A program made the translations under genes and the position numbers. Source: Bacillota bacterium (GTDB lineage Bacteria > Bacillota > Sulfobacillia > Sulfobacillales > JAIMBI01). From it: a DNA stretch of 64,000 bases. Below are positions 15,651 through 35,250 of this stretch, one piece after another. The first letter of the stretch is position 1; every line of letters begins with the position of its first letter. The notes beneath the pieces were generated by a model. The model was given only the letters and a program-made list of their open reading frames with translations, ran no database searches and was not told the DNA's origin. The DNA lies in the NCBI GenBank assembly GCA_021797815.1, contig JAJZYZ010000001.1, positions 62,001-126,000 on the forward strand, written 5' to 3'.

Positions 15651-16286
15651 TCAGAGCAGGCCGTGGCGGTGGGCAATCATGACGGCCTCCACCCGATTTT
15701 TGGCGCGGAGCCGGTGAGCGATGTCATTCACGCGGGCCTTCACTGTATTCTCGGAGAGAAAGAGGCGGCGGCCAATCTCCCGGTTGGTGAGCCCTTCCGC
15801 CACCAGCCGCAGCATGTCCAGGTCGTGTGCATTCAGCGGCAGCGCCGGCTCGGTGGAACCCGTCTGGATCCAGTGCATGACGACGTCGGTGGCGCGGGCG
15901 TCAAGCACCGACCCACCGTCCACGATCTTCCGGAGGCTTTGCAGGAGATCGAATCCTTCCACCTCCTTCAAAATGTAGCCGCGGACGCCCAGCCGAATGC
16001 ACGTTTCAATCAGCGCCTCGTCCAGGTAGCTGGTCAGGATCACAAGGGCCGTCCGGAGTCCTTCGTCCCGGACCGCCTGACACAGCGTCGCACCGTCCCG
16101 CCCGCCCATGCGAAGATCGACGAGAGCGAGATCAGGATCCAGGTCCCGGATGACCTGAAGCCCTTCTACGCCGTCCCGCGCCTCGCCGACCACGCGAAAC
16201 TCGTCGGTCTCCTCCAAAATGGAGCGGATGCCGCGCCGCACCACCTCATGGTCGTCGACCAGGACGACGCGGATGGCCTCACTCAT
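15651..16286 (-). CDS. NarL/LuxR-family response regulator
   Basis: VVLVDDHEVVRRGIRSIL receiver and DMLRLVAEGLTNREIGRRLFLSENTVKARVNDI HTH. Confidence 0.93.
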   Translation of the reverse strand: MSEAIRVVLVDDHEVVRRGIRSILEETDEFRVVGEARDGVEGLQVIRDLDPDLALVDLRMGGRDGATLCQAVRDEGLRTALVILTSYLDEALIETCIRLGVRGYILKEVEGFDLLQSLRKIVDGGSVLDARATDVVMHWIQTGSTEPALPLNAHDLDMLRLVAEGLTNREIGRRLFLSENTVKARVNDIAHRLRAKNRVEAVMIAHRHGLL

Positions 16287-17454
16287 GGGGCGCCTTTCGC
16301 GGCAGCTGGACCCGAACCGTCGTGCCCCCCTCATCGTTGCGGAACACCGAGAAGTCGCCCCCGAACTCCTCCACCAGACTGCGCATGGCGTGAAGCCCGT
16401 AGTGGGCGGTGAGTCCCGTCGGCCCGGCCAGGGCGTCGTCGTCGATCCCCTGCCCGGCGTCCTGAATGCTGACAACCAGTGTTTCGCCATCGAATCCGGC
16501 GGCCACAAATGCGACGGAGCTCTGGCTGTGGCGGCGCACGTTGGTGAGCGACTCCGAAATAATCTTCCCGGCGCACGCGGCCAGTGCTCGGGGAACCATG
16601 TCGAGGGATCCACGGGTGACAAGCGTCGTACGGATGCCGCTTTCCTGCTCGAAATGCTGGACCAGGTCCTCGAAGACGAGCGACGCCGGCCGCCCCAGAT
16701 CGGTGTCCTGTGCCAGCGAGAAGATGGCGGCCCGGATTTCGCTGGCTCCCTCCGCCGCCAGCTGCTTGGCGCGGATGAGTCGCTCGATGGCGGCGTGCTG
16801 GTTTGCCCGAAGACCCTTCAGCGCCTGATCCACTTCAATCCCGAGGGCGAAGAGGATCTGGGACACCGAGTCGTGGAGCTGCTGGCTGATGCGGGTTCTC
16901 TCTTTCAGCACGGCCAGTTCCTCGGACTTCGAGTACAGGCGGGCATTGTCAATCGCAATCGCCGCCTGGGTCGAGAATGCGAGCAGAAGTTCCTCGTCTT
17001 CGGTGGTGAAGAGGGCACCCCCGGGTTCGTGGGCCAGAAACAGCGACCCCAGGATCCGGTCCCGCATCGCCAGCGGTACGGCCAGAAACGCTCCCACCGG
17101 TGGATGCCCGGCCGGGGTGCCCACAGACAGCGGGTGCTCCGGCAGCGTGGCTACGCGCAGGGGAGAGCCCGTCTTATGCGGGAGGGCAAAGATCCCGCGC
17201 CCCTCCGGAAAGCCGGCCGGACCGGGCCATCCGGAGACGGTGAAGTACTCATAGCGGCCCGGAGCCTCGGGGTCTAAGACCAACAGACCCCCCATTTCGG
17301 CCCCGATAAGTTCGCGCGCTGCGTCCACCACTGTTTGCAGCAGGGGCTCAAGCGCCATGTGGGACGTGATGCGGGTGCTGACCTCAATCAGGGCATTCAG
17401 TTCCTGGACCTTGCGCCGAAGCATCCGTGTCGGTTCCGGACCGGGTGAGACCAT
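16279..17454 (-). CDS. GAF-domain sensor histidine kinase (HisKA_3 type)
   Basis: RTRISQQLHDSVSQILFALGIEVDQAL H-box, GQGIDDD G-box, GAF region. The stop overlaps the regulator start. Confidence 0.92.
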   Translation of the reverse strand: MVSPGPEPTRMLRRKVQELNALIEVSTRITSHMALEPLLQTVVDAARELIGAEMGGLLVLDPEAPGRYEYFTVSGWPGPAGFPEGRGIFALPHKTGSPLRVATLPEHPLSVGTPAGHPPVGAFLAVPLAMRDRILGSLFLAHEPGGALFTTEDEELLLAFSTQAAIAIDNARLYSKSEELAVLKERTRISQQLHDSVSQILFALGIEVDQALKGLRANQHAAIERLIRAKQLAAEGASEIRAAIFSLAQDTDLGRPASLVFEDLVQHFEQESGIRTTLVTRGSLDMVPRALAACAGKIISESLTNVRRHSQSSVAFVAAGFDGETLVVSIQDAGQGIDDDALAGPTGLTAHYGLHAMRSLVEEFGGDFSVFRNDEGGTTVRVQLPRKAPHE

Positions 17455-17740
17455 GGCGTCACCTCCGTGTGGCACTGTCGGCGGAATACAGTCAACTCGA
17501 AGCGTCTCCGATGAAGTGGCCCAATTGTACCTCCGATTGGATCGGTGGGAAGGATCCGAAAGGATCTGGTGGTCGAGGCCGGAGCGGGCGAGACTGAAAG
17601 CATTGATCGGTCATCGACCCACCCCGATTCCGTCGCCGATCTCTCAGCCATCCGTTGTGGTCGCCCTGTTAAGGTTTTCTGCCCGCTGGCCGCGTCGGGC
17701 CTTCGGGTCACCGGAAAAGAGAAAGGAGCACCGAGGGCCT

Positions 17741-18628
17741 ATGTTCCCGAACGCCTTCGAATATCAATCTCCGACGTCTCTCGACGAAGCCGTGGCGCTT
17801 CTCGTTGAACATGGCTACGAGGCCAAGATCCTGGCCGGGGGCCAGAGCCTCCTGCCGATGATGAAGCTTAGGGTGGCGGCGCCGACGGTCCTGGTGGATC
17901 TCGGGCGCGTGCCGGGCCTTGACGCCCGAACCGAGAACGACCGAGAACTCTCCCTCGGAGCCATGACACGCCATGCGAGTCTCGAGTGGGATGAAGATCT
18001 TTGGGCGCGCTATCCCCTTCTCCGCGAAACGGCCGCCTGGATTGCCGATCCCCTGGTCCGGAATCGGGGCACCATGGCCGGCTCTCTCGCCCACGCGGAC
18101 CCCGCGGCCGACTGGGGAGCCGCGCTTCTCGCCCTGCACGGCTCGGTGACCGTGGACGGGCCGAACGGTTCCCGTCGCGTTGGAGCCGACGACTTCTTCG
18201 TGGACGTCTTCACCACCCGGCTGGAGCCAGACGAGGTGCTGACGGCGGTTCACATCCCCCGCCCCGAGCATGACGTTTTTGCCACCCATCTCAAGCTTGA
18301 ACGGAAGGTGGGCGACTTTGCCGTGGTGGCGGTGTCGCTGCAGGTGGAGATAGACGGTGACGGCCGCATCCGCCGCCCCGGCATCGGTCTCGCCGGGGTC
18401 GGCCCCACGTCGCTGCATGCTACGGCCGCCGCTTCACTCCTCGAAGGACAGCCCCTGTCGTTGGAGCTCATCCGTGAGGCCGCCGCCAAAGCTTCCGCGG
18501 CCACCGATCCGGCTTCTGACCGCCGCGGCAGCGCCGACTTCAAGCGTGACATGGTGCGGCTCTTCGTGGAACGCGGACTCCGCTCGATAGAGAGCCGTTT
18601 CGATGAGGGGCGGCGTCGGAGCGCATAG
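17741..18628 (+). CDS. coxM: Carbon monoxide dehydrogenase medium (FAD) subunit
   Basis: [31 protein letters not shown] and [23 protein letters not shown]. Adjacent to coxS and coxL. Confidence 0.92.
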
Positions 18629-18663
18629 ACCTCTACCCACTTGAAAGGATGGGAGGAAGTCCC

Positions 18664-19158
18664 ATGTTGATTTCCGTAACCGTGAACGGACAGGAACGAA
18701 CGGCAGACGTCGAACCCCGTACGCTCCTTTGCTACCTGGTGCGGGACGAGCTGTCCCTCACCGGCACGCATGTTGGCTGCGACACCACAAGCTGCGGCGC
18801 CTGCACCGTCTTGCTGGACGGCGTGCCGGTCAAGTCCTGCACGGTGCTGGCCGTCCAGGTCGACGGACAGGAGCTCATGACCGTGGAGGGTCTCGAGCAG
18901 GCCGGCGATCTCCATCCTCTCCAGAAGGGGTTCTGGGAGAGCCACGGCTTGCAGTGCGGATTCTGCACCCCCGGCATGCTCATGACCACCTACGCGCTTT
19001 TGGAGCGCAACCCCGACCCGACCGAGGACGAGATCCGCCGGGCCATTTCCGGCAATCTCTGCCGATGCACCGGCTACCAAAACATCGTGAAAGCGGTCCA
19101 GTATGCGGCCCCGCTCGTGCGTGAAAAGCGCGAGGCAGCCAGGGAGGTGGCAAGGTAA
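18664..19158 (+). CDS. coxS: Carbon monoxide dehydrogenase small (2x[2Fe-2S]) subunit
   Basis: [20 protein letters not shown] and CGFCTPGM...[19 protein letters not shown]. Confidence 0.95.
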
Positions 19159-19159
19159 T

Positions 19160-21511
19160 ATGGCTCTCGAAACAACGGAGCTCCGTCCGCTCGGAAAGTC
19201 TATCAAGCGCAAGGAAGACGCCCGCCTGGTCCGCGGGCAGGGCCGCTTTCTGGACGACATCAAGCTCCCTCGCATGCTTTACCTGGCCCTCGTCCGCAGC
19301 CCGTACGCCCACGCCCGCATCGTCGGTATCGACACCGCACGGGCCCGTGCCCTTCCGGGCGTACACCTGGTTCTGACGGGGGAAGACCTCGCGAAGCTTA
19401 ACCTGGCGTGGATGCCGACTCTGGCCGGCGACAAGCAGATGGTGCTGGCCACCGACAAGGTCCTCTTCCAGTACCAGGAGGTGGCGGCCGTCATCGCCGA
19501 CACCCGAGCCCTGGCCGAGGATGGGGCGGCGCTCGTGGAGGTAACATACGATCCCCTGCCCGTGGTAGTAGACCCCCGGCGGGCGCTTGAGCCGGACGCG
19601 CCGGTCCTCCGTGACGACCGGGAGCAGCGGGACAATCACATATTCCACTGGGAGGTGGGGGAGCGCGCCGCCACGGACGAGGCGCTGCGAGCCTCGGCGG
19701 TGGTTGTGAAAGAGAGCATCCGCATGCCGCGGGTGCATCCGGCGCCGGTCGAACCGTGCGGATGCATCGCGGATTATGACGGCGCTATGGGCAAACTCAC
19801 CTGGTACGTCACGTCGCAGGCACCCCACGCCCATCGAACCGTCCTGGCCATGGTGGCCGGCCTGCCCGAGCACAAGATCCACGTCATTTCCCCCGACGTC
19901 GGCGGCGGCTTCGGCAACAAGGTGCCCGTCTTCCCCGGGTACGTGGCGGCCATCGTCGGTTCCATCTCTCTCGGACGGCCGGTGAAGTGGGTCGAGACAC
20001 GCACGGAAAACCTGACCAGCACCAACTTCGCCCGCGATTACTTCATGGACGTCGAGCTTGGGGCGGACGACAAGGGACGCGTCACGGCTCTCAAGGTGAC
20101 GACCGTCGCCGACCACGGCGCCTTTGACGCCGCGGCCGACCCGACGAAGTACCCGGCGGGCCTCTTCAGCATTGTTACGGGCTCCTATGACTTCCCCACC
20201 GCCTTCGCCGAGGTTGACGCCGCTTACACCAACAAGGCCCCCGGGGGCATCGCCTATCGCTGCTCGTTTCGCGTCACCGAAGCCTCGTTCCTCATCGAGC
20301 GGGCGATGAACTCCCTGGCCCTTAAGCTTGGCGTCGACCCGGCGGATCTCCGCTTCCAAAACTTCATAGGGAGCGACCGGTTTCCTTACGACTCGCCGCT
20401 TGGATGGACATACGACAGCGGAAATTACGCGGCCACGCTTAATCGGGCGCTTGACATGATTGACTACCGGGCGCTGCGCCAGGAACAGGCCGAGCGGCGG
20501 GCGCGGGGAGAATTCATGGGCATCGGCATCTCCACCTTCACGGAGATTGTCGGAGCCGGCCCGAGCCAGTCGTTCGACATTCTCGGCATCAAGATGTTCG
20601 ACAGCTGCGAGATTCGCGTACATCCGACCGGCAAGGTCATCGCCCGTCTCGGCACCCGCCATCAGGGTCAGGGACATGAGACCACGTTTGCCCAGATCAT
20701 CGCGGAGGAGCTCGGCCTCAGCACCGAGGACGTGCTGGTGGAGGAAGGCGACACCGACACCGCCCCGTATGGTCTCGGCACATACGCCAGCCGCAGCACC
20801 CCGACTGCCGGGGGCGCCGCGGCTCTGGCTGCGCGGCGGGTGCGCGACAAGGGCCGGAAAATCGCCGCGCATCTCCTGGAAGTGTCGGACGACGAGGTGG
20901 AATGGGACGGCCAGCGATTCTATGCCGCCGGGGCCCCGGAGCACGCCGTGAGCATGGCCGAGGTTTCCCTGGCGGCCTACACCAACCTGCCCGCCGGCAT
21001 GGAACCGGGCCTCGAGGCGACCTTCTACTACGACCCGCCCAATCTCACGTTTCCGAACGGCGCCTATGTGGCGGTAGTCGACATCGACAAGGGCACCGGC
21101 GAGGCCAAGGTGAGGCGGTTTGTGGCCGTTGACGACTGCGGCACGGTTATCAATCCGATGGTGGTGGAGGGACAGATCCACGGCGGGCTCACGGAAGGGT
21201 TCGCCATTGCCTTCATGCAGGAGATTGCGTTTGACGAGGACGGCAACTGCCTCGCCCCCAACTTCACGGAGTATCTCGTGCCGACAGCGGTCGAGGCACC
21301 GAAGTGGGAGACGGACCGCACCGTGACCCCGTCGCCGCACCATCCTATCGGCGCCAAGGGGGTGGGGGAGTCGCCCAACGTGGGCTCACCGGCCGCGTTT
21401 GCGAACGCGGTCATGGATGCGCTCTCGCCGCTTGGGGTCACCAACCTCGACATCCCGCTGTTTCCCTGGAAGATCTGGGAGGTTCTGAGACAGCATGGCG
21501 TGACCGAGTAA
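19160..21511 (+). CDS. coxL: Carbon monoxide dehydrogenase large (Mo-Cu) subunit, form I
   Basis: Form I active-site loop AYRCSFR at 20252-20272; GGFGNKVPVFPGYVA; GAKGVGESPNVGSPAAFANAV. Confidence 0.95.
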   Translation: MALETTELRPLGKSIKRKEDARLVRGQGRFLDDIKLPRMLYLALVRSPYAHARIVGIDTARARALPGVHLVLTGEDLAKLNLAWMPTLAGDKQMVLATDKVLFQYQEVAAVIADTRALAEDGAALVEVTYDPLPVVVDPRRALEPDAPVLRDDREQRDNHIFHWEVGERAATDEALRASAVVVKESIRMPRVHPAPVEPCGCIADYDGAMGKLTWYVTSQAPHAHRTVLAMVAGLPEHKIHVISPDVGGGFGNKVPVFPGYVAAIVGSISLGRPVKWVETRTENLTSTNFARDYFMDVELGADDKGRVTALKVTTVADHGAFDAAADPTKYPAGLFSIVTGSYDFPTAFAEVDAAYTNKAPGGIAYRCSFRVTEASFLIERAMNSLALKLGVDPADLRFQNFIGSDRFPYDSPLGWTYDSGNYAATLNRALDMIDYRALRQEQAERRARGEFMGIGISTFTEIVGAGPSQSFDILGIKMFDSCEIRVHPTGKVIARLGTRHQGQGHETTFAQIIAEELGLSTEDVLVEEGDTDTAPYGLGTYASRSTPTAGGAAALAARRVRDKGRKIAAHLLEVSDDEVEWDGQRFYAAGAPEHAVSMAEVSLAAYTNLPAGMEPGLEATFYYDPPNLTFPNGAYVAVVDIDKGTGEAKVRRFVAVDDCGTVINPMVVEGQIHGGLTEGFAIAFMQEIAFDEDGNCLAPNFTEYLVPTAVEAPKWETDRTVTPSPHHPIGAKGVGESPNVGSPAAFANAVMDALSPLGVTNLDIPLFPWKIWEVLRQHGVTE

Positions 21512-21562: not shown

Positions 21563-22522
21563 ATGAGACAGACGATCTGGTCCACGATGGCGGCGCTTGA
21601 GGAACAGCGGACCCCGTACGTGCTGGTGACGGTGGTGCGGAGCGTCCGCCCGTCCTCCGCCCGGCCGGGGATGCGGGCGGTCGTAACCGCCGACGGGCGC
21701 ATCGATGGCTTCATCGGCGGACAATGCACCCGGCATCTGGTGCTGGAGATGGCCCGCGAAGTGCTGGCGCGGCGCGATGCCTGCCTGCTGCGGGTCACGA
21801 CCGACCCGGTCCCCAGCTCAGATCCCGGCGTGGTGACACGGCTTATGACCTGCCAGAGCGGCGGGGAGGTGGAGCTCCTGCTGGAACCCCATCTGCCGCC
21901 GCCGGTCCTGGTCATCATCGGCGGCACGCCCATCGCGGACGCGGTCAGAAGTCTCGCCGAGGATCTTGACTACACCGTCCACCAGCACGCGTGGGAGCCG
22001 CCGGAGACACTCGAGGCCCTGTTCGCCCGCGCCCTGTCGGTTGAGGGGGAACGTCCGGCCTATCTCATCGCGAGCCAGGGTGAGTATGACGAAGATGCGC
22101 TCCTGGCTGTGGCCGCGCACCACCCATCCTATGTGGGGGTGGTGGCAAGCCCCCGGCGGGCGGAGCGGCTGCGCGAGGTGTTGATAGAAGCGGGGGCATC
22201 GCCCGAGTTCGTCGAGGCGGTATCGGCCCCGGCCGGTCTTGATCTGGGTGCGGTGAGCCCGGCCGAGGTGGCGCTCAGCATCCTGGCGGAACTGCTGGTG
22301 GTCCGTCGCAGGACGCCTGTCGAAGCCGCACGGCCGGTGGCGCGGGAGGAGGATGTCCGGCCGTCCGCGGTTCTGGATCCGGTCTGCGGGATGACCGTGG
22401 ACCTGAACGCCACACCCCATACGGCCGTCCACCAGGGAACGACGTACGGGTTCTGCGGTCGGGGCTGCCTGCAGGCCTTCTTGCAGGATCCCGCCTCCTA
22501 CGCGGCCCAAAGCGCCCACTAG
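21563..22522 (+). CDS. coxF: XdhC/CoxF-type accessory protein fused to a C-terminal YHS metal-binding domain
   Basis: XdhC-like N-terminus (RPSSARPGMRAVVTADGRIDGFIGGQC) and Rossmann part (YVGVVASPRRAERLREVL), then DPVCGMTVDLNATPHTAVHQGTTYGFCGRGCLQAFLQDPASY. Confidence 0.8.
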   Translation: MRQTIWSTMAALEEQRTPYVLVTVVRSVRPSSARPGMRAVVTADGRIDGFIGGQCTRHLVLEMAREVLARRDACLLRVTTDPVPSSDPGVVTRLMTCQSGGEVELLLEPHLPPPVLVIIGGTPIADAVRSLAEDLDYTVHQHAWEPPETLEALFARALSVEGERPAYLIASQGEYDEDALLAVAAHHPSYVGVVASPRRAERLREVLIEAGASPEFVEAVSAPAGLDLGAVSPAEVALSILAELLVVRRRTPVEAARPVAREEDVRPSAVLDPVCGMTVDLNATPHTAVHQGTTYGFCGRGCLQAFLQDPASYAAQSAH

Positions 22523-22632: not shown

Positions 22633-23109
22633 GTGCACACGTATACCGGAACTCTCGCATTAGAGGCTCCCCTGGAGCGGGTCTACCGCTTCATCACGGC
22701 CGCCGCCGACGTCGGGCCCTGCATGCCCGACGTCGCCTCGGTGGACGTGAAAGACGACACGCACTTCCAGGCCCGCGTCCGGGTGGGCGTGGGACCGGTC
22801 CGCGGTTCTTTTGACCTGAGTGCGGCCATCGTGCCTGACGGGGAGGGGAAATCGGCGGCCCTGGAAGTCCGGGGTGGCGGCATGGGGAGTGGGGTGGACA
22901 TTGCGAGCGAGCTTCAGCTGGCGGAAGTCGCGCCGGGCTCCACGGAACTCCGGTGGGAAGCGCGCGTCACCATCAGTGGACCGCTCGCGGCGTTGGGTGC
23001 GCGGCTCATCGACGGGCAGGCCAAACGCATTACGGCGCAGCTGTTCGACAACATAGAGGCCCGGATCCGACAGCTGTCAGAGGGAGGACCCCGGGAAGTT
23101 GAGGGATAG
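22633..23109 (+). CDS. coxG: CoxG-type SRPBCC protein
   Basis: GTLALEAPLERVYRFITAAADVGPCMPDVASVDVKDDTHFQARVRVGVGPVRGSF; position in the cox operon. Confidence 0.88.
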   Translation: MHTYTGTLALEAPLERVYRFITAAADVGPCMPDVASVDVKDDTHFQARVRVGVGPVRGSFDLSAAIVPDGEGKSAALEVRGGGMGSGVDIASELQLAEVAPGSTELRWEARVTISGPLAALGARLIDGQAKRITAQLFDNIEARIRQLSEGGPREVEG

Positions 23110-23116
23110 CCGGGAA

Positions 23117-23971
23117 ATGGCGGCCGACCGCGTGGACGCCCTGCTCGACCGCCTTCGGCAGGCGAGCTACATCGCGTCGCGAGAGGCGGTAAGCGCCCTC
23201 TATCTCGCGGAGACCCTCGGCCGCCCGCTCCTGGTTGAGGGACCGGCCGGCGTGGGCAAGACCGATCTGGCCCGCGCATGGGCAGCACTCAGCGGACGGG
23301 ATCTTGTGCGTCTGCAGTGTTACGAAGGCATCGATGCCAGTCAGGCGGTCTATGACTGGAATTATCCAAAACAGCTGCTGTCGGCGCGCCTGGCCGCCGA
23401 GGGGACCGATATCGGCGCCCTGTACGGGCCGGGGTTTCTGGTTGAGCGCCCCCTCTTGCAGGCCGTCTCGGCGAGCCCTGCCCCGGTATTGCTGGTGGAC
23501 GAAGTCGATCGGGGCGATGAGGCGATGGAGGCGCTGCTGCTGGAGTTTTTGGGCGAGTCGCAGATTACGATTCCCGAGCTGGGCACGGTGCGGGCCGGGG
23601 AACCGCTGCGGGTCATCCTCACCTCGAACCGGGTGCGGGAGCTGTCAGATGCGCTGCGCCGGCGGTGTCTGTACCTCTGGCTCGACTTCCCGGATGCCGA
23701 GCGCGAAGTTGAAATTATCCGTGTCCGGGCGCCGGAGGTTCCGGGTGTCCTGGCCCGGGCGGTGGCAGACGCGACCCATGCGCTTCGACGCCTCGATTTG
23801 ATAAAGCCCCCGGGCCTGTCCGAGGCCGTCGACTGGGCCCGCGCCCTCAACGCGCTCGGCTTCCACGAGTTGAGCCGGGACGCCGTCGAGGCGACCGCCA
23901 GTGCCGTGGTGAAGACAGCCGAGGACCGGGCCGCCGTGGAACGGCACTTAGGAAGTCATGGACGGCTCTGA
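23117..23971 (+). CDS. coxD: MoxR-type AAA+ ATPase, CoxD
   Basis: EGPAGVGKTDLARAWA Walker A, PAPVLLVDEVDRGDEAMEALLLEFLGE Walker B. Confidence 0.92.
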   Translation: MAADRVDALLDRLRQASYIASREAVSALYLAETLGRPLLVEGPAGVGKTDLARAWAALSGRDLVRLQCYEGIDASQAVYDWNYPKQLLSARLAAEGTDIGALYGPGFLVERPLLQAVSASPAPVLLVDEVDRGDEAMEALLLEFLGESQITIPELGTVRAGEPLRVILTSNRVRELSDALRRRCLYLWLDFPDAEREVEIIRVRAPEVPGVLARAVADATHALRRLDLIKPPGLSEAVDWARALNALGFHELSRDAVEATASAVVKTAEDRAAVERHLGSHGRL

Positions 23972-25076
23972 TCCGGCGGCCGCCCTCGCGAGCTTTTCCC
24001 ACTATCTCCGCCGCCAGGGATTCAGTACCGGCCCGGACGACACCCGGCTCGCTCTTCTGGCGCTCGGGCATTCCCATCTTCTTGACGGCGGTGAGGTTCA
24101 AGACCTGCTGCGGACCGTCTATGCGCGATCGCCGTCCGAGTGGAGCCGCTTTCCCGATCTCTGGACCGCGTATCTCACGGGACGCCGCCCGCGGGCTGTT
24201 CCCCCGCCTCCCCGGACGCTCCCCGAGGGGTCGGGTTCGAAGAGCCGCGAGGAGGCCGGACCGTCCCTCACCCGGCCGGCCGTCACGGGCAGGCGCCTGG
24301 CCTACAGCCCCACCTGGGGGGAGCGCTTTGACGTGCGTCTGGCGACGGGCTCAGAGCTTCTCGGCGTGCGCCAGGCGGCCATCGGCACCCTGGCCGCCCT
24401 TCACCAACACCCGGGAACGCGGCGGGGTGCGCCTGGCCATCCTCTTTTGGATATGCGTCGAACGATGGCGGCCGCCCTGCGCCTCGGCGGAGAGCCCGCC
24501 GTCTGGCACGAACGGCGCCGGCGGCCTCAGCCGCCCGCCATGGTGCTGGTGGTGGACTGTTCGGGATCCATGCGCGAGCATGCGTCCTACCTGCTCACCT
24601 GGGCATGGGCGCTGTCCCGGCTGCCGATCCGGCTCGAGGTGTTCGTGTTTTCCACCGAAGTCATTCGGCTCACCCCGCGCCTCCGCCGTCTGTCGCCCGG
24701 CCAGGACCCGCTGGTCGGGCTTGACGCGCTGTCGGGCGGGACCAAGATCGGGGCGGCGCTCGAGCATATCCTGACCGCCTATCGGGAGCGGCTCGGTCCA
24801 CGGACAACGCTGGCGGTCGCCTCAGACGGGTTCGACTCCGGGGACCAGGCGCTTCTTTCGGTCAGCACGCGGGCGCTTGCGGCCCGCGTCCACTGCCTTA
24901 CCTGGCTCAATCCGGCCGCATCTCAGAAGGGATACCGCCCGCAGTCTGCGGGGATCCGGACCGTTCTGCCCCTCGTGGACCAGCATCTGCCGGTCCACGA
25001 CCGGGCGAGCATGCTGGCCGCTCTGCAGCAAGGGGCATTTCGGAGAACGTTCAAAAGAAGCGCCGCGGACGGATGA
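23958..25076 (+). CDS. coxE: VWA-domain protein CoxE
   Basis: MVLVVDCSGSMREHASYLL MIDAS; overlaps the coxD 3' end by 14 bp. Confidence 0.9.
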   Translation: MDGSDPAAALASFSHYLRRQGFSTGPDDTRLALLALGHSHLLDGGEVQDLLRTVYARSPSEWSRFPDLWTAYLTGRRPRAVPPPPRTLPEGSGSKSREEAGPSLTRPAVTGRRLAYSPTWGERFDVRLATGSELLGVRQAAIGTLAALHQHPGTRRGAPGHPLLDMRRTMAAALRLGGEPAVWHERRRRPQPPAMVLVVDCSGSMREHASYLLTWAWALSRLPIRLEVFVFSTEVIRLTPRLRRLSPGQDPLVGLDALSGGTKIGAALEHILTAYRERLGPRTTLAVASDGFDSGDQALLSVSTRALAARVHCLTWLNPAASQKGYRPQSAGIRTVLPLVDQHLPVHDRASMLAALQQGAFRRTFKRSAADG

Positions 25077-26449: not shown

Positions 26450-27595
26450 TCACCCGACGCCATCGGACGGCGAGGCGCCTCTCCGAACATTTTCGCGCGC
26501 TCGCAGGCGCATGCCGCGCCTTGTCAACCAGACATTGCGCACGGCCATTATACTTACGGCCGCCCAGGCTAGAAGGGCGATCCACACGAATGCGGCCCCG
26601 ATCGGATGGAGCCCGGAAAATCCCGGCACCCGGGAGAGCGTGGTGGTGGCGGTGGCGTACATGCCGAGCGGGAACACGATGCTCCATTGGGCGGGATGGT
26701 AGCCAATCGGCTCGTGCTCATGCCCGTACTTCCACCAGCCCAGCACCAACAGAAGGGGAATCCACCAGGAACCCCAGGCCCACAAGACCACGGTCAGGCC
26801 TTCCAAGAACGGACGCACCGTCACGAGGGCGGCGCCGGCGTGATGCAGCAATAGGAGCCGGGAGCTTGCCAGCACGGTGATGGCGGTCGCCCCCATGTTG
26901 ATCCAGTAGGGCGGGTCAAGGTCCGCCGCGCGGACCCGGTAAAAAAACAGGCGGTCCATCACGAGGCCGATAAAGACCACGTACAGCATGATGCCCATGG
27001 CCCAAAAGACCAAGGCCGCGAGAAAGAGCGCTTTCCCTGCGTGCGGCAGGTGATCGACCATGGCGCCGAGCCAGGTGGAGAGAGACTCTTCGGCCACGAT
27101 GGCGATGAGCCAGCCGCCGTTGACCATCGTGAGGCGAACACGCCGCCCCACGATGAGAAGAGTGGTCAGGCTGTAGAACAGCACGATCCACAGGAGGCAT
27201 CCGGTTACCCCCAGCGCGAGGCCCAGAAACGGCCGGTGCGCGAACAGAAACCGCACCGCCAGGACGTTGGACGCGGCCACCATCGTGAAGTAACCGAACA
27301 TGCGAGCGGGATTCGTGACATCCTGACGGGTCTCTTCGGTGAAGCGTGCCCCGCGCAGGACATAAGTCACCCAGAGGAAGCCATATGCCGCGGCGCCGAT
27401 CCACATAAGCCCCATGGAGATGGCCGTCTGATGATAGAGATGAAGCGCGGTCGACACGATCTCGGTGGCCATGACGAGGGCAAAGTAGCCGGGGTACAGA
27501 CCCTTCAGGGTGGAATGCGCGCCGGTGGTGCTGGAGGCGCCCTCCGTTCCGCCGGCTTTTAGTGTTGTCGGTGTTCGTGATGGGAAAGCTTCCAT
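26450..27595 (-). CDS. TDT-family (TehA/SLAC1-like) anion transporter
   Basis: About ten hydrophobic segments; LYPGYFALVMATEIVSTALHL N-terminal pattern typical of TDT/C4-dicarboxylate-type transporters. Confidence 0.8.
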   Translation of the reverse strand: MEAFPSRTPTTLKAGGTEGASSTTGAHSTLKGLYPGYFALVMATEIVSTALHLYHQTAISMGLMWIGAAAYGFLWVTYVLRGARFTEETRQDVTNPARMFGYFTMVAASNVLAVRFLFAHRPFLGLALGVTGCLLWIVLFYSLTTLLIVGRRVRLTMVNGGWLIAIVAEESLSTWLGAMVDHLPHAGKALFLAALVFWAMGIMLYVVFIGLVMDRLFFYRVRAADLDPPYWINMGATAITVLASSRLLLLHHAGAALVTVRPFLEGLTVVLWAWGSWWIPLLLVLGWWKYGHEHEPIGYHPAQWSIVFPLGMYATATTTLSRVPGFSGLHPIGAAFVWIALLAWAAVSIMAVRNVWLTRRGMRLRARENVRRGASPSDGVG

Positions 27596-27865: not shown

Positions 27866-28315
27866 ATGTCCGGTCCCGCCCTCCGTCAGGTTGAGCCGCA
27901 TCGCGCCATTCATGCCGCCATGCGGCATGAACTCCAGGCGACCGTCATGGCTGCCGAAACTCTGTCTCCCGATGGGGACCAGGCCCGGCGGCTGAGACAG
28001 GTGGTCGAGGTGTTTCTGGAACTGGTGGAGACCCGCATCCTGGCGCACGCGCACGAAGAAGAGGCCGGCCTCTATGCGGAGTGGCTTCAGCTTCAGATTC
28101 AGGGCGGTCGGGAGGCGCTCTCCGCCGCGGTCGCGTCTCTGGTCCTCCAGCACAGCATGCTGCGGCAGCTGGCGTCGGACGTCGAGCGGGCCACGGTGGT
28201 TGGCAAGCGCGAGGCCGTGCTGCGCGGAATGCGAGAGTTTCAACGCGTACTGGACGACCACGAGCGCCACGAGGAGGACCTGGTGCGAGAGCTTTTGGAG
28301 ATGGGCGGCGGCTGA
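27866..28315 (+). CDS. Hemerythrin-like (HHE) domain protein
   Basis: HxxH/HE pattern: HRAIHAAMRHEL, ILAHAHEEEAGLY, LQHSMLRQ, DDHERHEEDLV in a four-helix-type sequence. Confidence 0.65.
   Translation: MSGPALRQVEPHRAIHAAMRHELQATVMAAETLSPDGDQARRLRQVVEVFLELVETRILAHAHEEEAGLYAEWLQLQIQGGREALSAAVASLVLQHSMLRQLASDVERATVVGKREAVLRGMREFQRVLDDHERHEEDLVRELLEMGGG

Positions 28316-28699: not shown

Positions 28700-28709
<10 letters not shown>
28443..28709 (+). CDS. 88-aa conserved-looking helical protein coupled to narG
   Basis: MTDGDKTRRVATDDDISDLLTILQWRFGPVSDELAAKVRKLTDVSQIDHLILAAANAPTWDVVASELREPGF...; stop overlaps the narG start codons. Loosely DUF4351-like helical pattern. Confidence 0.65.
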
Positions 28710-32384
<3,675 letters not shown>

Positions 32385-32395
<11 letters not shown>

Positions 32396-33923
32396 GGCGC
32401 AGATTGCGATGGTCATGAACCTCGACAAGTGCATCGGATGCCATACCTGCAGCGTGACCTGCAAGAACACCTGGACCAATCGTCCGGGCGCCGAGTATAT
32501 GTGGTTCAACAATGTCGAGACCCGTCCGGGTCCCGGCTATCCCCAGGAATGGGAAGACCAGAAGCGCCGCCGCGGCGGGTGGGTGCTTGACGGTGGCCGG
32601 CTGCGGCTGGCCGCGGGCGGCCCGCTGGAAAAGCTGGCCCACATCTTCTACAATCCGGATCTTCCTCAGATTGACGACTATTACGAGCCCTGGACCTACG
32701 ACTACCAAACTTTGACGGACAGCCCCCGGCGTACGCACCAGCCTGTCGCGCGCCCCCACTCGCTCCTGACGGGTGAGGTCATGGAGCGGCCGGTCTGGGG
32801 CCCGAATTGGGACGACGACCTGGCCGGTGGTCCCGAGATTGCGCCCCGGGATCCCAATCTGAAGCCGCTCATGGAGCATATTGCGCTCGAGTATGAGCAG
32901 GCCTTCATGATGTATCTGCCACGCATCTGCAACCATTGCCTCAATCCCGCCTGTGTGGCCGCGTGCCCTTCCGGCGCGATGTACAAACGGGAAGAGGACG
33001 GCATCGTGCTGGTGGATCAGGATGCGTGCCGCGGCTGGCGCTACTGCGTGAGCGCCTGCCCTTACAAGAAGGTCTACTTCAACTGGAACACGCACAAGGC
33101 GGAGAAGTGCACGTTTTGTTATCCGCGCATCGAGGCCGGTCTTCCGACCGTGTGCTCCGAGACGTGCGTCGGCCGTATCCGGTATCTGGGCCCGGTCTTC
33201 TACGACGCGGATCAGGCGCTGGCCGCCGCCAGTGTGGAGAATCCCCAGGATATCTACGAGGCGCAAAGACGCATCTTTCTGAACCCTCATGACCCGGACG
33301 TGGTGCGCGAGGCGCATCGTCAGGGCATCTCCGACACCTGGATCGAGGCGGCCCAGCGCTCGCCGGTTTACAAGATGGCCGTGGAGTGGCAGATTGCGCT
33401 TCCGCTGCATCCCGAATACCGCACGTTGCCGATGGTGTGGTACGTGCCGCCCTTGAGTCCTATGATGAACCACCTGGCCGACGCCGCCCACATGCCGGCC
33501 GATGCCTTTCTCACGGCCGTGGACAGCATGCGCATCCCCCTTGACTACCTGGCCTCTATCCTGGCCGCCGGCGATGTCGGACCGGTCCGGCGGGCGCTTG
33601 TGCGTCTCAGCGCGATGCGGACCGCCATGCGGGAGAAGAACCTGGGCACTCAGGGCACCGACTGGACGGCAAGCGCCCTCATGACCGAGGCCGGCCTGTC
33701 GGTGGAGCAGCTGGACGCGATGGCGGATCTGCTTGCCGCCGCCAAGTATGACGCGCGGTTCGTGATTCCCACCGGGGACCGGAGTCACGAGGGCAACCTG
33801 GATTACTGGCAGGGAGCGTGCAGCCTGGAAGGGCTGGCCCCAGCCGAAGGCATCGCGCCGCCACGCCGCACGATTCCACTGGAGGTTCACCCCGCGTCGT
33901 CATCACGGGAGGTTGAGCCATGA
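32385..33923 (+). CDS. narH: Respiratory nitrate reductase beta subunit
   Basis: MVMNLDKCIGCHTCSVTCKNTWTNRPGAEYMWFNNVETRPGPGYP, CNHCLNPACVAACPSGAMYKREEDGIVLVDQDACRGWRYCVSACPYKKVYFNW. Confidence 0.97.
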
Positions 33924-34537
33924 CCGAAACCCAGCGGCTCATACTGAAAATCGCCTCCGGGATCCTCGATTATCCCGGTTCCAGCGCGTTCGGGGACCGG
34001 CTCCAAAGGCGGAAGGGGCTGGCCGGAGAGGTTGACCCCCGGCTTCTGGCGGTCATTCAGTCTCTCTTCGGGCCGGGCCCTCTGCAACTGGAGCAGCTTT
34101 ACGTCGAAACGTTTGATTTCAACCCCCGGCACGCCCTCTACGTGACGGCGCAGGAGATGGGCGACGCCCGTGAACGCGGTCAGGCGCTCCTCGAGTGGGC
34201 CGCCCTGTACGGCGCGGCGGGCTATGAGGTTCCCGACGGTCAGCTGGCGGATTACGTGCCCATGCTGCTCGAATTGACCGCCGTCCGGCCGGACGTGGTG
34301 CAACAGGCGTTCATAGACCGCCTGGCGGCGGCCTGCGCCCAGATCGCCGACACCCTGGAGGTCGAGAACCCGTACCGGCCGTTATTTGACCTGATTGTGG
34401 ACACGTTGGGAGGGCAGGGCGGGCAGGAGTCCAACGAGCCACGGCCTGCCCATGACGCGGCCGGGGGTCTCGACGACCTGCCCTATCCGCTCCATTACCC
34501 GGGGACTGAGTCGGAACACGGGAGGGGTGTCTCGTGA
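33920..34537 (+). CDS. narJ: Nitrate reductase delta chaperone
   Basis: YVETFDFNPRHALYVTAQEMGDARERGQALLEW; ATGA overlap with narH. Confidence 0.92.
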   Translation: MTETQRLILKIASGILDYPGSSAFGDRLQRRKGLAGEVDPRLLAVIQSLFGPGPLQLEQLYVETFDFNPRHALYVTAQEMGDARERGQALLEWAALYGAAGYEVPDGQLADYVPMLLELTAVRPDVVQQAFIDRLAAACAQIADTLEVENPYRPLFDLIVDTLGGQGGQESNEPRPAHDAAGGLDDLPYPLHYPGTESEHGRGVS

Positions 34538-35250
34538 ATCAGTTCCTGTGGGTCATCTATCCGTATCTCGCTCTCACTCTCATGATTGTGGGAAGCCTCT
34601 ACCGGTACGCGCACAACCCCATGAGCTGGAGCGCCCGCTCAAGCGAGCTCTTGGAGAAGCGCTGGCTGAAGTGGGGGAGTCTTTTGTTTCACTGGGGCAT
34701 CCTGCTGGTCATCGCGGGCCACGTCGTCGGCCTGTTGGTGCCGCTCGGGGTGTATCAGGCCATCGGGATTTCCGCCTCTTTCTATCACACCAACGCGGAC
34801 ATACTGGGAGGCCTTGCGGGGTTCATGACATGGGTCGGTCTCGCCATCCTGCTTCTGAGGCGGCTCGGCAATGCACGCGTACGGCGCAATTCGAGTCTGT
34901 CGGACTTCGTGGCGCTCGGCCTCCTGTTCATCGTGGTCACGAGCGGCGACTATGTGACCCTGGTGCGCAACACCCTGCTCGGTCCCTACGAATATCGGGC
35001 GACCGTCGGTCCCTGGCTTCGCGGACTTCTGGTGCTGCACCCGGACGCGGCGCTCATGGCGCATGTGCCGGCGGCGTTCCAGGTGCATATCATCCTGGCC
35101 TTTCTGCTGTTCGCCGTGTCCCCCTTCACCCGCCTCGTGCACATCTGGAGCATCCCCCTGGCATATCTGCGCCGGGCGCCCATCCAGTACCGCGACCGGG
35201 CGCAGTACCGCACCCGTGCAGCATCTGACGGCGATCGGGAGGTTCTATAG
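34534..35250 (+). CDS. narI: Nitrate reductase gamma subunit (cytochrome b)
   Basis: FLWVIYPYLALTLMIVGSLYRY, LLFHWGILLVIAGHVVGLL, SPFTRLVHIWSIPLAYLRRAPIQYR. Confidence 0.95.
   Translation: MNQFLWVIYPYLALTLMIVGSLYRYAHNPMSWSARSSELLEKRWLKWGSLLFHWGILLVIAGHVVGLLVPLGVYQAIGISASFYHTNADILGGLAGFMTWVGLAILLLRRLGNARVRRNSSLSDFVALGLLFIVVTSGDYVTLVRNTLLGPYEYRATVGPWLRGLLVLHPDAALMAHVPAAFQVHIILAFLLFAVSPFTRLVHIWSIPLAYLRRAPIQYRDRAQYRTRAASDGDREVL

Follow-up and report, generated by a model that had tools for sequence, protein, structure and literature searches.

Enzymes of the xanthine oxidase family all need a sulfido ligand on molybdenum, and only form I carbon monoxide dehydrogenase (CODH) carries copper. The published model of how copper reaches the Cu-S-Mo centre consists of motif guesses (phytase, integrin binding) made on a single CoxF without a YHS domain. 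The DNA analysed here, a stretch of 64,000 nucleotides from a Bacillota bacterium (hereafter the window), contains, immediately after a form I coxL, a gene for an XdhC-type protein that ends in a YHS domain. What would such a domain do in the maturation of CODH? The sequence-only reading of the window had proposed a built-in copper donor. We compared the protein with its homologues in order to identify to which family it belongs, which enzymes it accompanies and which role of the YHS domain is the most probable.

The coxF gene, its product and its surroundings

The genes are ordered coxM-S-L-F-G-D-E. Features are as follows, with the basis of each assignment in brackets.

17741..18628, plus strand: coxM, FAD subunit (Pfam FAD_binding_5, CO_deh_flav_C)
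18649..19158, plus strand: coxS, [2Fe-2S] subunit (Pfam Fer2, Fer2_2)
19160..21511, plus strand: coxL, large subunit of form I CODH, with AYRCSFR (TIGR02416, motif)
21563..22522, plus strand: coxF, XdhC_CoxI - XdhC_C - YHS fusion protein of 319 aa (ORF, Pfam, tree placement)
21563..22312, plus strand: XdhC part of CoxF, residues 1-250, with Cys55 (GGQC) and Cys97 (MTC-x-S-G-G) (alignments A1 and A2)
22313..22372, plus strand: flexible linker of CoxF, about residues 251-270 (low pLDDT in the model)
22373..22510, plus strand: YHS domain of CoxF, residues 271-316, with putative metal ligands Asp272, Cys275, Cys298 and Cys302 (PF04945)
22633..23109, plus strand: coxG (Pfam COXG)
23099..23971, plus strand: coxD, MoxR-type AAA ATPase (Pfam AAA_5; NCBIfam MadB_ATPase-like below cut-off)
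23958..25076, plus strand: coxE, VWA protein (Pfam VWA_CoxE)

CoxL, which contains AYRCSFR, scores 1214 bits on the NCBIfam equivalog TIGR02416 for aerobic CODH, against a cut-off of 991. The coxF reading frame starts with ATG and has a good ribosome-binding site, GGAGG, close upstream. Its product matches XdhC_CoxI at residues 14-77 (63 bits, cut-off 24), XdhC_C at residues 116-244 (83 bits, cut-off 30) and YHS (PF04945) at residues 271-316 (46.9 bits, gathering cut-off 30.3). The YHS sequence, DPVCGM...YGFCGRGCLQAFL, contains Asp272, Cys275, Cys298 and Cys302. The domain search that had been proposed from the sequence alone thus places all three domains above their Pfam cut-offs, and the description of an XdhC-type protein with a three-cysteine YHS domain inside a Mo-Cu CODH operon stands, cox neighbours included. 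A chance match or an assembly artefact can be excluded, since many independent genomes encode homologues of full length.

AlphaFold predicts a confident fold for the YHS domain (pLDDT about 90) and a flexible linker before it (residues 251-270, pLDDT about 57-60); in 38 fusions for which it was measured this linker is 21-90 aa long. Among solved structures the XdhC-like 2we7/2we8 and 3on5 come nearest, and the fold search gave no confident matches beyond XdhC structures. A sequence search of the PDB with the YHS domain returned weak matches at best, for instance to phenol hydroxylase, and no metal-bound structure that backs copper in a YHS domain of the CoxF type.

The surroundings of the operon contain several further genes. 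A GAF-HisKA_3 sensor kinase and a LuxR-type response regulator, at 15651-17475 and divergent from coxM, are candidate regulators of either cox or nar. The nar cluster, complete for a respiratory nitrate reductase (narG, narH, narJ and narI, at 28700-35250), comes after the cox operon in the same orientation, a hint at possible coupling of CO oxidation to nitrate. Between the two clusters lies a gene for a SLAC1-family anion channel (26450-27595, minus strand), and a small hemerythrin-like protein is encoded at 27866-28315, immediately upstream of narG.

Affiliation and distribution of the fusion protein

In a quick tree, rooted on CoxI together with further XdhC proteins and leaving several forks open, the protein groups with Oligotropha CoxF in one clade, apart from CoxI/XdhC, on a branch with 99% SH-aLRT support. 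All aligned relatives retain Cys55 and Cys97 (alignments A1 and A2), and Cys97, in C-x-S-G-G, aligns at the position of M107CPSHGTM, the suspected copper motif of Oligotropha CoxF (PMC4240915). Several related operons also contain a separate CoxI, which lacks a YHS domain. On this comparative evidence the fusion protein is identified as CoxF and a CoxI identity is rejected: where the sequence-only reading had left the position as CoxF or CoxI, the clade and the motif favour the first, and CoxI falls outside that clade.

CoxF from Oligotropha (Afipia) carboxidovorans OM5 shares with the window's protein the XdhC_CoxI/XdhC_C architecture, the clade, a cysteine at the C-x-S-x-G motif, a place in a form I cox operon and an implication in copper insertion. 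It differs in its length of 280 aa and in lacking both the YHS domain and C-terminal cysteines, and its operon is ordered coxMSL-D-E-F-G as against coxMSL-F-G-D-E here. The CoxI/XdhC proteins of form II CODH and xanthine dehydrogenase (XDH) have the same XdhC fold, but they carry neither a YHS domain nor C-x-S-x-G and lie on the opposite side of the tree.

When all 61 related genomes were searched, full-length fusions were found in 19, and a search for CoxL identified form I enzymes, 76-100% identical, in exactly the same 19. All 19 fusions adjoin their AYRCSFR CoxL. The 61 genomes also contain over 100 further xanthine oxidase-family large subunits, none with a fusion as its neighbour. Fusions are also present in Alicyclobacillus, Chloroflexota, Armatimonadota, Eremiobacterota, the archaeon Halovenus carboxidivorans and others, and matches accompanied by form I CoxL are found on plasmids of Thermomicrobium roseum, Natronorubrum, Deinococcus and Burkholderiales.

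So that the fusion itself did not serve as the query, samples of five phyla were searched for form I CoxL and the neighbourhoods scored for CoxF, CoxI and YHS. Counting all loci, including those reached by routes other than the CoxL search, 110 of 121 assessable form I-linked CoxF carry a YHS domain (Bacillota, Chloroflexota, Actinomycetota, haloarchaea, Burkholderiales, Deinococcus and others), a count over related and hence statistically non-independent organisms, made with a YHS profile derived from known fusions that strongly diverged domains could escape. Four further CoxF are cut by contig ends and six stretches contain no CoxF. The Chloroflexota sample has a YHS domain on every assessable CoxF (40/40). 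Across the fusions the three YHS cysteines are retained almost without exception (109/110, 109/110 and 110/110). Among the CoxI/XdhC-type ORFs of the surveyed loci, form II loci included, none of 56 has a YHS domain or the C-x-S-x-G motif. The sequence-only reading had suggested a survey of co-occurrence and would have given up the copper role had the fusion been equally frequent at form II or XDH loci; the fusion instead accompanies the copper-containing form I enzyme (110/121 CoxF versus 0/56 CoxI/XdhC-type proteins), with none detected at form II or XDH-type loci.

AYACSFR replaces AYRCSFR in the CoxL of some Actinomycetota and Chloroflexota, most of them with a YHS-bearing CoxF; it is frequent among loci L161-L163, L187-L195, L200, L201 and L206, mostly Actinomycetota. 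Deinococcus sp. AJ005 (L102:7001-8062) has a CoxF with a degenerate YHS domain, in which the first cysteine is replaced by Asp and the second is shifted (FTCANC).

As a reverse check, the Chloroflexota and Actinomycetota samples were searched with the fusion profile for fusions lacking a listed form I CoxL. Candidates in G281, G372, G393, G396 and G418 were rejected, being cox operons cut by contig ends; the one in G155 lies at a contig edge without neighbours, and that in G480 is a decayed fragment. An intact YHS-bearing CoxF does occur in a deltaproteobacterial MAG (L064:8001-8975), within a Mo-cofactor biosynthesis cluster. This MAG has no CODH-type large subunit above the cut-off, an exception that may be due to its incompleteness.

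Probable gain and losses of the YHS domain

Eleven of the 121 assessable form I CoxF lack the YHS domain, Oligotropha's among them; alphaproteobacterial CoxF, including that of Afipia/Oligotropha OM5, are of this kind. Two YHS-less CoxF (L211:7117-7983 and L212:10231-11154) end in Cys-Cys tails (SSCCHDE and SGCCSG), which one might speculate to be a substitute metal site.

Presence or absence of the domain requires five changes on the tree. Since the outgroup is YHS-less, the most economical history has the domain gained once, at the base of CoxF, and lost about four times, namely in alphaproteobacteria, in one haloarchaeon, in two genomes of the phylum of G066 and in one actinobacterium. This reading is provisional, given the quick tree with its open forks and the fact that change counts alone cannot separate gain from loss. 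The YHS domain is thus probably ancestral to CoxF. With a loss in alphaproteobacteria, Oligotropha CoxF, the only one studied experimentally, appears to be a derived form. The notion of a local fusion does not survive, as both the survey (110/121) and the tree indicate a common, probably ancestral form of CoxF.

Possible roles of the YHS domain in CODH maturation

Disruption of coxF in Oligotropha resulted in a partly sulfurated, copper-free CODH, with CoxE also lost in the mutant (PMC4240915). A YHS domain made an adenylyl cyclase of Mycobacterium phlei responsive to copper (PMC4626032); like the domain studied here it is C-terminal and has an Asp and three Cys, but it is attached to a cyclase and acts as a switch, not as a donor. 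At E <= 0.001 the source genome contains only three other YHS domains, all at the C-terminus of a copper ATPase with HMA and CPC motifs. These are the closest YHS domains in the genome, up to 51% identical and with the same Asp/Cys pattern, although their host is a membrane exporter with three tandem copies.

We consider it probable, at roughly 0.6, that the window's CoxF is the complete and likely ancestral maturation factor of form I CODH, whose tethered YHS domain binds copper and presents it for insertion into the Cu-S-Mo centre. As judged from the literature on XdhC and CoxF, the XdhC part would dock on folded, sulfurated apo-CODH. The tethered C-terminal YHS domain would bind copper through Asp272, Cys275, Cys298 and Cys302 and present it, possibly via Cys97 and Cys55 of the XdhC part, after which Cu(I) would be placed between the Cys of AYRCSFR and the Mo-SH group. 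A role of the domain in copper handling is well supported by its distribution; the identity of the metal as copper and its transfer to CoxL we infer.

The same distribution bears on a role of the YHS cysteines in sulfur handling, as a persulfide relay or in protection of Mo-SH, which would extend the XdhC role. Stabilisation of the sulfurated Mo cofactor is the presumed function of XdhC and has been proposed for CoxF too (PMC4240915). Yet the sulfido ligand is needed throughout the family, and in the surveyed loci the XdhC proteins of form II and XDH type never carry a YHS domain. Since these enzymes need Mo sulfur but no copper, the confinement of the domain to form I points to copper rather than sulfur, and we regard a sulfur role as improbable.

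The strongest alternative, albeit an unlikely one, is that the YHS domain is a structural or metal-sensing module (for Cu, Zn or Fe) and serves to stabilise CoxF or to switch it, for instance so that maturation depends on the supply of copper, but does not deliver the metal atom. Two points agree with it: the sole YHS fusion tested so far, the M. phlei cyclase, is a switch activated by Cu2+ (PMC4626032), and loss of the domain in several lineages suggests an auxiliary role. The strict restriction to form I and the near-invariant cysteines fit a copper-specific role, but would fit a copper switch equally well. A docking module for CoxD, CoxE or CoxL, any metal being only structural, is improbable as well: CoxD, CoxE and CoxF are thought to cooperate (PMC4240915) and the C-terminal position of the domain on a flexible tether would suit docking, but YHS-less CoxF too is accompanied by CoxD and CoxE, so that the domain is unnecessary for that partnership there.

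Copper presentation by the YHS domain has to be reconciled with natural CoxF that lack it. Their existence implies that the domain is not indispensable for copper insertion, the likely reading being that it raises copper capture or efficiency. The earlier claim of a direct metallochaperone must likewise allow for alphaproteobacterial CoxF, which are implicated in copper insertion yet YHS-less. More tentatively, and with the odds somewhat against it, YHS-bearing CoxF could be the donor from which all form I CODH ancestrally obtained their copper, a single protein whose Mo-site chaperone part recognises the sulfurated Mo site and whose tethered Cu(I) domain supplies the copper, the alphaproteobacterial system being a reduced descendant that draws its copper otherwise.

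The separate parts are already known, and the XdhC-YHS architecture is probably visible in Pfam/InterPro. Our literature search, which covered openly accessible papers, found no text that links XdhC, CODH or coxL with YHS. As a recognised metal-binding domain conserved in most lineages other than that of the studied CoxF, the YHS domain is a direct candidate for the copper site, and its presence or absence among CoxF offers natural comparisons with and without it. YHS-bearing CoxF also provides a genomic marker that tells copper-containing from form II enzymes and could, we suggest, aid copper loading in heterologous expression.

The copper ATPase of the source genome, encoded on another contig (L316:6306-9320), has a single HMA domain at its N-terminus and, as an unusual tail, three YHS domains at its C-terminus. 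Relatives also contain long ORFs of this kind that match YHS several times.
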